Below, piece by piece: positions 26,385 through 31,898 of a DNA stretch of 64,000 nucleotides. The stretch lies in the NCBI GenBank assembly GCA_022826005.1, contig JAJDVT010000121.1, forward strand, positions 142,450-206,449, written 5' to 3'. The stretch is from Gemmatimonadota bacterium. Its GTDB lineage: Bacteria > Gemmatimonadota > Gemmatimonadetes > Longimicrobiales > Gaopeijiaceae. A model generated the notes under the pieces. It made no database searches, was not told where the DNA came from, and saw only the letters and a list, made by a program, of their open reading frames with translations. Both the position numbers and the translations under genes were made by a program. Every line of letters starts with the position of its first letter. Position 1 is the first letter of the stretch.

Positions 26385-28205
26385 TGGCCGGCCCGAACCC
26401 CGCGCTCGCCCGCCAGGACGTCCGCTACGAGCCCGACGAGCGTCCCCCGCTCCCGATGACCGCGGGACTCGGCGTCCAGTACGCGATCATCTGCATCGCA
26501 AGCATCATCCTGACGCCGACGGTCATGATCACCGTCGCGGGACGGGGGCGACGCGTACCTGTCGTGGGCGGTGTTTGCGGCACTGATCGTGAGCGGCCTG
26601 ACCACCGCGATCCAGGCGCGGCGGGTGGGCCGGATCGGGGCCGGCTACATCCTCGTGATGGGGAGCACGAGTGCGTTTCTCGCGGTGAGCGTGTCGGCGA
26701 TCGAGCAGGGAGGGCCCGGGATGCTGGCGACGCTCATCATCGCCTCCTCCCTCGTGCAGTTCGCGCTCGCCGCCAGGATGGCGCTGCTGCGGCGAATCTT
26801 CACCCCCACCGTCGCCGGCACCGTGCTGATGCTGATCCCGGTGACGCTCTCCCCGATGATCCTGCGCAAGCTGGCCGAGGTACCGGAGGGAGCGTCGCCC
26901 GCCGCAGCCCCGGTCACCGCGCTGGTCACGCTCCTCGTCACCGTCCTCATCCCGCTGCGCTTCTCCGGCGCCCCGCGCCTCTGGGCTCCGGCCATCGGCA
27001 TCCTCGCGGGCTGTCTGACCGCCGGCCTGGGCTTCGGCATCTACGACATGAGCACGGTCGCCGAGGCCGCCTGGATCGGCCTGCCGGACATCGCCTATCC
27101 CGGAGTCGACCTCGGCTTCCGGCCCGAGTTCTGGGCGCTGTTGCCGTCGTTCATCATGGTGACGCTGGTCGGCGCGATGGACACGCTCGGGGACAGCATC
27201 GCGATCCAGCGGGTGTCGTGGCGCAGACCGCGCGCGATCGACTTCAAGTCCATCCAGGGCGCGATCTCCGCCGACGGCGTCGGCAACCTGCTCTCCGGCC
27301 TCGCGGGAACGGTCCCCAACACCACCTACGGCATGAGCATCAGCGTCGCCGAGCTTACCGGCGTGGCCTCCCGCGCGGTGGGCGTCTGCGTTGGCATCGT
27401 CTTCGTCGCTCTCGCCTTCCTGCCCAAGTTCGTGACGCTGATCATCGCGATCCCGGGCCCCGTGGTCGCCGCCTACTTCGTCATCATCGTGGCGCTGATC
27501 TTCGTCTTCGGGATGAAGATCCTGCTGCAGGACGGCCTGGACTACCGCAAGGGACTCGTCGTCGGCGTCGCCTTCTGGATCGGCATCGCCTTCCAGCTCG
27601 ACTGGATCTACCCGGAATACTGGACGGGCCCCTGGGGCGAACTCCTCGGCAACGGCATGACAGTCGGCGGCTTCGCGGTGATCGGGCTGACCCTGTTCAC
27701 CGAGCTGACCGGCGGGCGCCGATCACGCCTGAAGACGCGCCTGACGGCGGAGACCTGGCCGGAGGTGGACGCCTTCCTGACGAAGTTCGCCGCCCGCAAG
27801 GGATGGGACGAGGCGATGGAGATGCGGCTGCGCGCCGTCGGCGAAGAGACGATGCAGATCCTGACGCGCGCGGAGGCGGATGGCGCGGGCGACACCGGAG
27901 CAACCGGCGGGCAAGGTGCGGGCCACCCGGAGGAGGCGAACGGCGGGGAGGGCGCAGGCAACTCCGAGCGGCGCCTCCTGTTGCTGGCGAGCGCTGACGG
28001 CAACGCCGCCGACCTGGAGTTCATCGCCACCACCGACCAGGCCAACCTCGAGGACCAGCTGACGATGCTGACCGAGGTGGCCGGGAACGTGCCGGTCGAC
28101 GCCGAGACCCCGCTGCGGCTGTTGCGGCACTATGCGTCGTCGATCCGGCACCAGCAGTATCACGACATCGATATCCTGACGATTCGGGTGGAGGGCCGGG
28201 GGTGA
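26384..28205 (+). CDS. SLC23/NCS2-type xanthine/uracil permease with C-terminal cytosolic (possibly HATPase-like) domain; apparent +1-nt frameshift at 26544-26548
   Basis: MTAGLGVQYAIICIASIILTPTVMITVAG in frame A, then GDAYLSWAVFAALIVSGLTTAIQA...VTLVGAMDTLGDSIAIQRVSW...GNLLSGLAGTVPNTTYGMSISVAELTGVASRAVG in frame B (tracked ORF 26571-28205). TGATG overlap with the upstream decarboxylase. Confidence 0.85.
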
Positions 28206-28287
28206 GGAAAGTTCCCTAAGTCGTGCACTGGAAGTCGGCTGAGATCGTGGTCTGTCGGTTGAGGAAGACCCCTACTCGCGTCACAAG

Positions 28288-30186
28288 TCATCGGTCCTCC
28301 GCACTGTGCTTGCGCGAACGCATGAAGACCGGTTTGATGTCTTCACCAGCAAACAGACGGCGGATCTCATTGCAGTGCTTCCCAAAGGTCGCAGTCGAAA
28401 CGCGGGTGTATGACCAGCCGCTGATTTCGCTGCGCTGGTGACTAACTCGAAGCACCTCCTCCGCCTCCGCCAGGTGCCGGGTGGCGTCGTCTGGACGGTT
28501 GCCGAACCACTCTGCCACTGCAAGCGCTTGGAGCTTGTTCGCATCGTCTTCGAGCCAGTCCTTATCGTCTTCTGCATCGTAGTGGGCCAATACGCCTGCA
28601 AACGCCTCGGGGTCGACTACCCCGGACTCACCCCACAGTGCCATGGCCAAGTTGAATGCCGTGGGTACAAGTGTGCCAGTCGCCGGTTCCGCTAGCGCCC
28701 GTTGCAGGAACTTGGCAGCCTCCGCGCAGTCACCTACCGCAATGCGTGCGAAAGAAAGCTCCCATTGCCAATCCTTCCTTCGGCGGTTTGAACCCTCTTC
28801 CGAGGTGAGAGTGTCCTCTAGGATCCTTATCGCAATTCGTCGCTCGCACGCCGAGAGATCCAGTCGTTTGGCCACGAGGGCCCGCGCAGGTGGCGGAAGG
28901 TCTGCTATTTTGGGACTGTGTTCGACGTATGCAACACGATCCGCCTCAAGCGTTTCCAGCAGGCCGAGTCCCCGCGACACCAAACTGTACCTGCGACGAT
29001 CACTTTCGGGTAAGTCCGTCCAAGGATCTTGGAAGAACGACTTGAGCGCCCGCAGCGCGCCATCGGGATCACGCGTGAAATGCCGGGCCTCAGCCAGCCG
29101 AAACAGTTGTACGGGGGTCAGAGTGGCAAACTCCGCAATCCGTTCCAGGAGTTCGGCGGCTTCGACAATGGCACCCCGTGAATCGTGCTCGTCAGCCAGT
29201 GCGGTCAGCACGTCCGGATCTGCGTCATAGCGGCGCCGGATCCGGTCTAGCCGGTCGAAATGCCCAGGGGCTGCAACTCCATCCCGAGCCTCCCGGAGGT
29301 ATTCCAGAACACCTTCTCGATCAGCAATATTCAGAGCTCGAATCTGCCGGGTGAGTTCCCGAAATGAACGTGCCAGCTTCGTACGCGGCCGCACAGCCGT
29401 GTAGATTGGCTGAGTCAGGAGATCCATGCTCTGGTAGTGTCTGATTTCCTGCAGCCGTCCCGGTGGAATCGCGAGTCTTTTTCGGAAAGTTGCCCGACGC
29501 TCTTCCAGTACTCCGTCTTCGTCATCGGCGTCCGGGATCGCCGCCATTGCAAAATGAAGGTCCACCCCTCTCTTCCGACGGGGCGTCGGCTTTTCGCTCC
29601 GGATTGCCTCCACAATGGACTCCATCCCCCGCAGACTCTGGTCGTCAGGCCGGAACATCAGAACCACCGCATCAGGGAGATGGCGAGTACATATTCCACC
29701 CACATCGGTGAAGCCGGTGCGCGAATCAAGCAGTACGTAGTCGTAACCAACCCCATCCCACTGAGCCCTCAAGTCTTCGAACATCACATATCCGTCGCGC
29801 GCCAGATAGAGGTCATTCCAATCGATCTTGTTCAGCCGGGTGCTGTAGCTCTCGTCCAGCACACCGGATGACATCAGTTGAATGGTCCCGTCACATCCTT
29901 GCGGCGTTGCGTCTGCGATGTAGTCGTCAGCTCTCGGAACCCGCATGGTCTCGAGGTAGTCTCCAACGTACTCCACTATCCCCGGGCGGTCGCTGCTCTC
30001 CCAAGCTGTCGAGGATTCTCCACTCGTCGCCCTCCTCCAACGGTTGGAATGGATGGCGGGAGCTTCCAGGTCGAAGTCCACCACGAGTACGCTGTGGCCC
30101 GAATCCGCCAATTCGTACGCCACGTTTAGCAGCGCCAGAGTCCGGCCGACACCGCCCTTGTACGAATAGAACGTGACGACGTACAT
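28288..30186 (-). CDS. KGGVGR-motif ParA/MinD-like ATPase with long TPR-like C-terminal region
   Basis: MYVVTFYSYKGGVGRTLALLNVAYELADSGHSVLVVDFDLEAPAI (deviant Walker A) and YDYVLLDSRTGFTDVGGIC; helical repeats afterwards. ATG overlaps the upstream TGA (TGATG). Confidence 0.85.
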   Translation of the reverse strand: MYVVTFYSYKGGVGRTLALLNVAYELADSGHSVLVVDFDLEAPAIHSNRWRRATSGESSTAWESSDRPGIVEYVGDYLETMRVPRADDYIADATPQGCDGTIQLMSSGVLDESYSTRLNKIDWNDLYLARDGYVMFEDLRAQWDGVGYDYVLLDSRTGFTDVGGICTRHLPDAVVLMFRPDDQSLRGMESIVEAIRSEKPTPRRKRGVDLHFAMAAIPDADDEDGVLEERRATFRKRLAIPPGRLQEIRHYQSMDLLTQPIYTAVRPRTKLARSFRELTRQIRALNIADREGVLEYLREARDGVAAPGHFDRLDRIRRRYDADPDVLTALADEHDSRGAIVEAAELLERIAEFATLTPVQLFRLAEARHFTRDPDGALRALKSFFQDPWTDLPESDRRRYSLVSRGLGLLETLEADRVAYVEHSPKIADLPPPARALVAKRLDLSACERRIAIRILEDTLTSEEGSNRRRKDWQWELSFARIAVGDCAEAAKFLQRALAEPATGTLVPTAFNLAMALWGESGVVDPEAFAGVLAHYDAEDDKDWLEDDANKLQALAVAEWFGNRPDDATRHLAEAEEVLRVSHQRSEISGWSYTRVSTATFGKHCNEIRRLFAGEDIKPVFMRSRKHSAEDR

Positions 30187-30758
30187 CAGGCGACGATTCC
30201 CAAACCGGGAGTCCAACCCGCGCTACTCTCACGATAGCGCTGCACTTCATGAGAATCCAACGCACCCGAACTCCCCCAAATGGACGAAACCGGACCGGTC
30301 GAGATTGTGGACATCGCGAGCCCGCGCAGGCGGTTCATCGTGGCCCCATCCTTCAGCAATCTCAAATATCGGTCGCTGGATGTGTTTTGGATCACCTCAC
30401 CGCGTTCCCAACGTGCAACGCTCGCTTCTCCGAACCCTGTCAGGCGCGCGAAGGCGGCCCGCGAAAGGCCGTGACGCTTCCGGAGCCCGCGAACCTCGGC
30501 CGGAGTGAGTACTCCGAGATGGTGACAGACAACCTCATGCTGCGCGATTTCAGCCACTTCGCCCGTGTACGAAACCTCGCAGCGCGAGCACGTATGAACA
30601 GGGAACTCGGCAGTGAGTTCCACCGCGTCCGCCCCAGCGCCATAGATGAACGGATCTCTAACCAACTCCGTCTGGAGCCCGGGGGCTCCACACAATTCGC
30701 AGGACTCTGGTCCGGGGTGAAAGCCAAGAACGGTCGGGGAAGAAGCGATTCTAGTCAT
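30186..30758 (-). CDS. MqsA-like antitoxin: zinc-binding N-terminus and HTH
   Basis: CELCG...HTCSRCEVSYTG (two CxxC pairs), then LTPAEVRGLRKRHGLSRAAFARLTGFGEASVARWERGEVIQN (MqsA/XRE-type HTH). Confidence 0.82.
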   Translation of the reverse strand: MTRIASSPTVLGFHPGPESCELCGAPGLQTELVRDPFIYGAGADAVELTAEFPVHTCSRCEVSYTGEVAEIAQHEVVCHHLGVLTPAEVRGLRKRHGLSRAAFARLTGFGEASVARWERGEVIQNTSSDRYLRLLKDGATMNRLRGLAMSTISTGPVSSIWGSSGALDSHEVQRYRESSAGWTPGLGIVA

Positions 30759-31137
30759 CGTCGTACTCTGCCTCATGGAAGCTTCGAAGGAGAACCCGGG
30801 ACCCAAACAGTTGGAGCTTCACGTAGACGGCCACCGATTCGGGGGAAAGACTGGCGCGAAAGACCCAAGCCTTCTCGCCGGGAGGTTGTCGCAACTCGAG
30901 TTCCTCGAGCGGGACACCCAAATCCAGAAGTGTCTCGATCACACCCCACATCGTGGCTTTGGTAAGCGGTAGCCCGGTGTCCGGGTGGACTACTTCCCAA
31001 GGACGAACCACGGTCGGTCGATGCTTCGAAAACGCTGACTGCCGACGACCAGTTCGGATCAGATCGACCAGCCGCCCTCGTACGTGAGGCTGATTCCCAT
31101 CTTGGACTGTGTCGGGGCGAGTCCAAATGGGCTTCAT
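30751..31137 (-). CDS. putative MqsR/RelE-like toxin preceding the MqsA-like gene
   Basis: 129 aa, C-terminus SVAVYVKLQLFGSRVLLRSFHEAEYDDD reminiscent of MqsR/RelE-type strands; toxin-first gene order as in mqsRA; overlaps the antitoxin gene. Confidence 0.5.
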   Translation of the reverse strand: MKPIWTRPDTVQDGNQPHVRGRLVDLIRTGRRQSAFSKHRPTVVRPWEVVHPDTGLPLTKATMWGVIETLLDLGVPLEELELRQPPGEKAWVFRASLSPESVAVYVKLQLFGSRVLLRSFHEAEYDDD

Positions 31138-31280
31138 TCGGAAAACCGCTCATATGATCGCCGTTTGCTCATCGTAGCTCAGTTCAGGAACCAATTAGTA
31201 CCCATGAATGTACCGTATGATCCATCTGAAAGGAAGAGCCCCCTCTGGGCCCGGAATGGAGTGGAGTACGATGCACCCCC

Positions 31281-31898
31281 TCACAGAAACCTCGGCACCC
31301 TCCCCCGATACTCCCGGTACGCATCCCCGTACTGCTCCTCCAGCCAAGGCTCCTCCGTCAGCGGGGCGACCGCGAACCAGAGCGACAGCAGAACGTGGGC
31401 GATCCACAGGTACGCCGAGTTCGCGATGACGCCCACGCCGATGAAGAACACGATGTCACCCACGTACTGCGGATTCCGCGTGAACCGGTAGGGACCCGAG
31501 GACACGAAACCGTCCTTCATCCCTGACGTATTCCTCCAGCCCACCGTCACGATTCCCCACAGCGCGAGCAGGCCACCCAGCAGGGCCAGCGGGACTCCCA
31601 CGATGAACCGGAGGGGGCTCTCGAAGAGCCAGGAATTCCAGTCGAGGTAGATCAGGGCGGCGCTGAGGGCGATCGACGCGTAGAAGCAGGCCCACGTCAG
31701 CAGCCATTGCCAGGAGCGGCGGCCCGGCGGTGGCCAGATCCGCTTCGCGGGGAACGCCACTGACCACACGGCTCCGCCTAGCATGAAGAGGAGGAGGACC
31801 GAATCCGCGGCGAAGACGGTGGCCGCCATGTGTCTCATCATGAAGTCCCTTCGCTCCGACCGATCCGCAGGTATCGCGGACGATGGCCGGTTCGACAC
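31281..31898 (-). CDS. isoprenylcysteine carboxyl methyltransferase-family membrane protein
   Basis: GPYRFTRNPQYVGDIVFFIGVGVIANS...EEPWLEEQYGDAYREYRGRVPRFL: ICMT/PEMT-like C-terminal motif. Confidence 0.88.
   Translation of the reverse strand: MSNRPSSAIPADRSERRDFMMRHMAATVFAADSVLLLFMLGGAVWSVAFPAKRIWPPPGRRSWQWLLTWACFYASIALSAALIYLDWNSWLFESPLRFIVGVPLALLGGLLALWGIVTVGWRNTSGMKDGFVSSGPYRFTRNPQYVGDIVFFIGVGVIANSAYLWIAHVLLSLWFAVAPLTEEPWLEEQYGDAYREYRGRVPRFL

Follow-up and report, generated by a model that had tools for sequence, protein, structure and literature searches.

Type II toxin-antitoxin (TA) pairs are abundant, and their triggers are mostly unknown. In HigBAC and CmdTAC, SecB-like chaperones play the role of a stabiliser. 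The MqsA antitoxin of toxin-antitoxin-chaperone (TAC) modules carries a chaperone-addiction C-terminal extension (residues 136–176), which is read by a third protein (PMC5105189). As this precedent shows, the trigger can come from a third protein that reads the tail of an antitoxin. Dyads of a HEPN protein (MAE_18760) and a ParA/Soj-like ATPase have also been predicted to be TA systems (PMC3710099).

The current study concerns a three-gene locus (the triad) in a 64,000-nucleotide stretch of DNA from a Gemmatimonadota bacterium, referred to below as the window. The triad resembles the MqsRA-SecB type of TAC (PMC5105189), in that the putative toxin gene comes first, the MqsA-family antitoxin is extended after its HTH, and the third gene lies downstream. 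A further likeness is that the TA families vary from module to module in TAC (PMC5105189), and an antitoxin C-terminal extension specific to three-gene loci, a feature of TAC, was present in the triad. Unlike TAC, where the third gene encodes SecB, the third gene of the triad encodes a MinD/ParA-like NTPase with a TPR solenoid. The predicted toxin is also a distant relative of MqsR, and dependence on the third gene is hypothetical. With the HEPN dyads the triad shares a (predicted) RNase toxin beside a ParA-like ATPase, but in the dyads the ATPase was proposed to be the antitoxin, whereas the triad has a dedicated MqsA antitoxin and an MqsR-like toxin. The preliminary description of this DNA knew of no system with such a composition. 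No system of the same three genes was found in the open-access literature, and the novelty is provisional. TAC (PMC5105189), a described analogue, was not mentioned in the preliminary description.

Organisation of the locus

As first described, three minus-strand genes overlap end to start. The features are:

30751–31137, minus strand: gene 1, predicted MqsR-fold (BECR) RNase toxin, 128 aa
30186–30758, minus strand: gene 2, MqsA-like antitoxin, 190 aa, with zinc-binding N-terminal domain and HTH
30189–30281, minus strand: C-terminal extension (tail) of gene 2, approximately residues 160–190, proposed ATPase docking site
28288–30186, minus strand: gene 3, KGGVGR MinD/ParA-like NTPase fused to a TPR-like solenoid, 632 aa
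29317–30186, minus strand: NTPase domain of gene 3, residues 1 to about 290, with the deviant Walker A YKGGVGRT
28351–29316, minus strand: TPR-like solenoid of gene 3, approximately residues 290–612, all-helical in the model and with TPR matches
28207–31274, no strand assigned: whole cassette, the unit of presence or absence, with an empty site in same-genus genomes
26571–28205, plus strand: permease gene, one border of the cassette
31281–31898, minus strand: methyltransferase-like gene, the other border

Genes 1 and 2 overlap by 8 bases, and the TGA of the antitoxin and the ATG of the ATPase have one base in common (TGATG). All three genes lie at the coordinates given in the preliminary description, but the ATPase, counted from the ATG, has 632 aa and not 633. 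In related loci, the median gap was 2.5 bp between genes 1 and 2 and 4 bp between genes 2 and 3 (range −10 to 37, n = 40). A search for an operator palindrome and a promoter 5' of gene 1 gave nothing convincing.

An empty site was found in two genomes of the same genus (G250 and G322, loci L185 and L186). The cassette flanks, which are about 3.08 kb apart in the window, are separated by only about 126 bp in L185 and about 43 bp in L186. Since the flanks nearly adjoin in these genomes, the three genes were gained or lost as one unit. The source genome contains a single gene 3 relative.

Distribution and linkage

The gene 3 alignment was scanned against one genome per species, which yielded 80 loci. 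All 33 loci with a full-length ATPase relative had a gene 2 homologue directly upstream, and in 30 of these gene 1 was detected with a profile. The remaining three, all from Planctomycetes, have a different small ORF in its place, which also ends in a Y-V-E strand. The 33 loci, many of them from metagenome bins, span at least seven phyla; according to the record titles they belong to Gemmatimonadota, Acidobacteriota, Myxococcota, Planctomycetota, Latescibacterota, Binatota, Bacteroidota and Alpha-, Beta- and Gammaproteobacteria. The same gene order occurs in plasmid records of Rhizobium gallicum, R. phaseoli and Massilia forsythiae, where gene 1 is present but unannotated. The preliminary description would have taken conservation of the triad in over 10 unrelated genomes as support for its proposal, and the numbers above exceed this. 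An MqsR/RelE-type toxin, an MqsA-type antitoxin and a KGGVGR ATPase as one module are well supported.

Gene 1 was present in one copy per genome in 20 triad genomes, save for one marginal second match. The three genes have correlated distances (Mantel r 0.66–0.70, 0/2000 permutations); when the comparison is restricted to distant pairs, r falls to 0.11–0.44. Phyla are intermixed in the gene 3 tree, where some nodes are strongly supported, a pattern consistent with horizontal transfer. The module is rare: within the phylum, 7 of 399 genomes have it, and in the class of a Rhizobiales genome 2 of 386, with that genome counted. Free-standing MqsRA pairs are common in the relatives, and an ordinary mqsRA-like pair might by chance have come to lie beside an unrelated ATPase. 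Such an origin is extremely improbable, and is regarded here as ruled out by the 33/33 linkage over at least seven phyla, the correlated distances and the empty site. The three genes are a real, mobile unit, and their joint travel over this range of phyla suggests that the triad is a TA switch with a built-in third controller.

In more distant relatives (L057–L063 and L071), too, the gene before the ATPase is MqsA-like, and most of these loci have other divergent small proteins in front of it. In two of these second-tier loci, L060 and L062, large methylase and SNF2-helicase genes, BREX/DISARM-type in look, lie just upstream.

The putative toxin

Gene 1 had no convincing sequence match in Pfam, NCBIfam, PADLOC or PDB, and the MqsR model PF15723 gave no match at E ≤ 1 to gene 1 or eight relatives. 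An AlphaFold (AF2) model built from 33 relatives had a pLDDT of 89.4, and the best meaningful Foldseek match of this model was E. coli MqsR (3hi2_B; prob 0.99, TMt 0.64, E 0.035), followed by a second MqsR chain (3hi2_D; prob 0.94, E 0.17), the probabilities being high and the E-values weak. Alignment of gene 1 to the genuine MqsRs of the window's relatives by hhalign (P 1.1e-4) placed YVKLQ...SFH of gene 1 on YVKLQ...SFK of MqsR. According to the model, gene 1 has the MqsR (BECR) fold.

The catalytic residues of MqsR are Tyr81 and Lys56, and many other RNases use a Glu/His pair (PMC9636575). In the hhalign alignment, Tyr81 corresponds to Tyr105 of gene 1, which is invariant in 33/33 sequences. 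Lys56 corresponds to Glu78 (Glu in 23 of the 33), i.e. the catalytic Lys is not kept, and Lys96 to His121, which is also invariant in the 33 sequences. Conserved C-terminal strands hold Y105, K107 and S119-F120-H121. Because of the Glu/His pair of other RNases, Glu78 and His121 are candidate catalytic residues. Overall, the triad is like MqsRA (PF15723/PF15731; TIGR03830) in the MqsR-like fold, the invariant Tyr81 position, the zinc cysteines and HTH of the antitoxin and the gene order. It is unlike MqsRA in that gene 1 fits no MqsR model, does not keep Lys56 and has a His at the Lys96 position.

The antitoxin and its tail

Against TIGR03830 (MqsA family) gene 2 scored 58.1 bits, where the cut-off is 61.8, and a triad relative (G194) scored 66.2 bits; the match to PF15731 was weak. 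Three of the four zinc cysteines (C20, C57 and C60) were conserved in 43/43 triad antitoxins and the fourth (C23) in 42/43, and R116-W117 of the HTH was kept in all 43. Beyond these zinc and HTH parts, gene 2 has an extension of roughly 50 residues, by which the triad antitoxin, with its conserved tail and its link to an ATPase, differs from that of MqsRA. Nearly every triad antitoxin has about 40–60 residues after the HTH and ends in an aromatic tail, typically F-x-L-R. In 40 of 43, the motif [FWY]x[LIV] lay within the final 20 residues, compared with 8.1 (maximum 17) in shuffled tails, although no strict probability can be attached to this difference, as the sequences are related. The aromatic column of the tail, F in 39/43 and W182 in the window, ranks within the top fifteen for conservation over the whole antitoxin; the window itself has a diverged form of the tail, W-T-P.

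Genuine MqsA proteins encoded beside genuine MqsR in the same gene order are mostly shorter and have no such tail. In the window's genus and near relatives, the tail was present in the ATPase-linked antitoxins (window, G194, G061, G323:C5, G078 and G042), whereas the close ATPase-less antitoxins (G000:C19, which sits at a contig end, G323:C98, G153 and G175) diverge exactly at the tail, which is replaced by a large extra domain in three of the four. What is new here is that ATPase-linked antitoxins end in a conserved tail, and that near-identical ATPase-less ones of the same genus are without it. The association points to a contact between gene 3 and the antitoxin, and supports a model in which the third component would act on the antitoxin via the tail; the role of sensor or gatekeeper suggested for the NTPase in the preliminary description stays conjectural. 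Because the MqsA of TAC has a chaperone-addiction region (PMC5105189), we infer that the tail may be the docking site for gene 3.

Further arrangements were observed. The source genome of the window has another gene-1/antitoxin pair (L017, G000:C19:20797-22011), to which the G000:C19 antitoxin belongs and where no ATPase was seen. In L017, L132 and L136, likewise with no ATPase seen, the antitoxin tail is replaced by a fused domain of about 350 aa, which is helical and, by eye, perhaps HEPN-like. On a Polymorphobacter plasmid (L008:3067-5845), a triad-type ATPase is preceded by a small protein and a non-MqsA HTH protein, the latter carrying the F-x-L-R motif of the tail (GFDLRR) in its C-terminal region, which likewise links the tail to the ATPase. 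The small protein appeared HicA-like by eye, but this identity found no support in Pfam or NCBIfam.

The KGGVGR NTPase

Gene 3 matched NF047398 (KGGVGR-motif AAA ATPase) with 144.2 bits, above the curated cut-off of 90, and its NTPase part matched the PADLOC candidate PDC-M28B (E 3e-23). In the AF2 model (pLDDT 90.1), a TPR-like solenoid comes after a MinD/ParA/BcsQ-like domain; in Foldseek searches the N-terminus matched BcsQ, Soj and MinD, and TPR superhelices were among the other matches. This solenoid is the candidate tail-binding region. The NTPase motif family and the helical-repeat C-terminus are shared with the MinD/ParA domains of conflict systems, including FxSxx loci (PMC7159879), NF047398 and PDC-M28B, but those NTPases pair with TIR, AP-ATPase or vWA components and not with a TA pair.

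K10, G11, G12, G14, R15, D37, D39 and, in the DSRTG motif (residues 154–158), D154, S155, T157 and G158 were invariant in 35/35 gene 3 sequences. The signature lysine K10 is thus kept, while the P-loop lysine is replaced by Arg in all 35. Nucleotide binding is likely, but hydrolysis is uncertain because of this Arg and because comparable MinD/ParA domains in conflict systems have been predicted to be inactive (PMC7159879).

A ParA/Soj fold would also be expected if the ATPase served a mobile element in ParA-type partition and formed a stability cassette with an addiction TA pair; several triad loci are on plasmids, and larger gene associations often contain linked TA and ParA genes (PMC2701414). 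The substituted P-loop and the lack of a ParB-like gene within the three-gene cassette speak against such a role, which is considered very unlikely. Moreover, the majority of loci lie on chromosomes or large contigs, gene 3 carries a large TPR domain, and partition would leave the tail-ATPase association without explanation.

Proposed mechanism

The triad is probably a tripartite TA module, in which the ATPase reads the antitoxin tail and thereby gates an MqsR-like RNase, with a phage or mobile element as the probable trigger. Gene 1, as an MqsR-fold RNase, would cut mRNA and stop growth. Gene 2, an MqsA-type zinc/HTH antitoxin, would bind gene 1 and probably repress the operon, and the TPR solenoid of gene 3 would dock on its C-terminal aromatic tail. 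The function or stability of the antitoxin would then hinge on which nucleotide or ligand state gene 3 is in, so that a trigger, most likely infection by a phage or mobile element and otherwise stress, would free the toxin.

Control by gene 3 could run in either of two directions. In a TAC-like arrangement, gene 3 would serve as an ATP-dependent chaperone or holder without which the antitoxin does not work, and its diversion by phage or stress would cause the antitoxin to collapse and the toxin to act. The tail of gene 2 matches the ChAD of the TAC MqsA in position and length and occurs only where the third gene is present. Loss of the toxin beside an intact ATPase is also common (L019/G061, L022 and L049). 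Gene 3 is unrelated to SecB, however, and L043 and L052 retain an intact toxin with an ATPase that has lost its TPR region. A stabilising role is proposed tentatively, the chances being rather against it. Alternatively, a triggered gene 3 might remove the antitoxin by pulling on its tail, which would turn the toxin on, the TA pair being silent without gene 3. Activation of this kind would tolerate the broken ATPase of L043 and L052, and TIR-domain effectors are direct partners of the same ATPase family, a setting in which a role as sensor or activator is natural; but apart from the TPR solenoid no ligand-binding domain was visible in the AF2 model or the Foldseek matches, and this direction is judged slightly less likely than the first.

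The intact toxins of L043 and L052 imply that a full-length ATPase is not strictly needed everywhere to tame the toxin. Taken together, the order of decay points both ways, to a stabiliser and to an activator. Decay of both components was also seen: in L054, L055 and a remnant locus of G017 (L210, G017:C1), the toxin is broken or missing together with a truncated ATPase.

A role of the tripartite module in defence is suggested by the other associations of the KGGVGR family and by the prediction of ParA-HEPN dyads as TA systems (PMC3710099). The flanks of 20 triads were compared with 20 control regions taken elsewhere in some of these genomes. Defence genes occurred in both sets (HerA, SIR2, pAgo, ZorD-like and DpdE-like beside the triads; type III methyltransferase and HamB-like in the control regions), and no clear enrichment near triads was found. 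No gene 3 relatives were found in phage records. If the proposed mechanism is true, a second, unrelated third component uses the same trick as that of TAC, which would point to a general design, and the short conserved tail would offer a directly testable handle on the coupling between effectors and the MinD/ParA-like NTPases of conflict systems.

Other partners of KGGVGR ATPases

According to the preliminary description, KGGVGR homologues that are never linked to TA genes would speak against its proposal. For the ATPase subfamily of the triad the opposite was found, as it was always TA-linked here; the wider family adjoins TIR-domain proteins instead, which the ATPases follow within about 50 bp. 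Pfam detected TIR in 8 of 10 upstream partners tested, and FxsC models were matched by L085 and, weakly, L069. A C-terminal tail of the form P-[RK]-[FLWI] was present on 12 of 20 TIR-domain partners, compared with 0.8 in shuffles. The occurrence of TIR and FxsC partners with a tail of their own supports a tail-reading controller that is coupled to different effectors.

KGGVGR-TPR NTPases might, as a general class, act as controllers that read tails, with every clade wired to a different effector unit via a short C-terminal tail on the immediate upstream partner. The effector units may be an MqsR-like RNase with MqsA (F-x-[LIV]-R tail), TIR-domain proteins and FxsC/FxSxx systems. Under this reading, the effector gated in the TA triad would be an RNase toxin, and the triad would represent a tripartite TA type distinct from TAC. 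This generalisation is offered with reserve, the chances being rather against it.

The KGGVGR ATPases located directly 3' of TIR-domain or FxsC proteins that share the P-[RK]-[FLWI] tail were those of L064–L098. A further possible type of partner was seen on a Rhizobium plasmid (L012:3297-6199), where a 737-aa KGGVGR ATPase overlaps an ArsR-like HTH protein.
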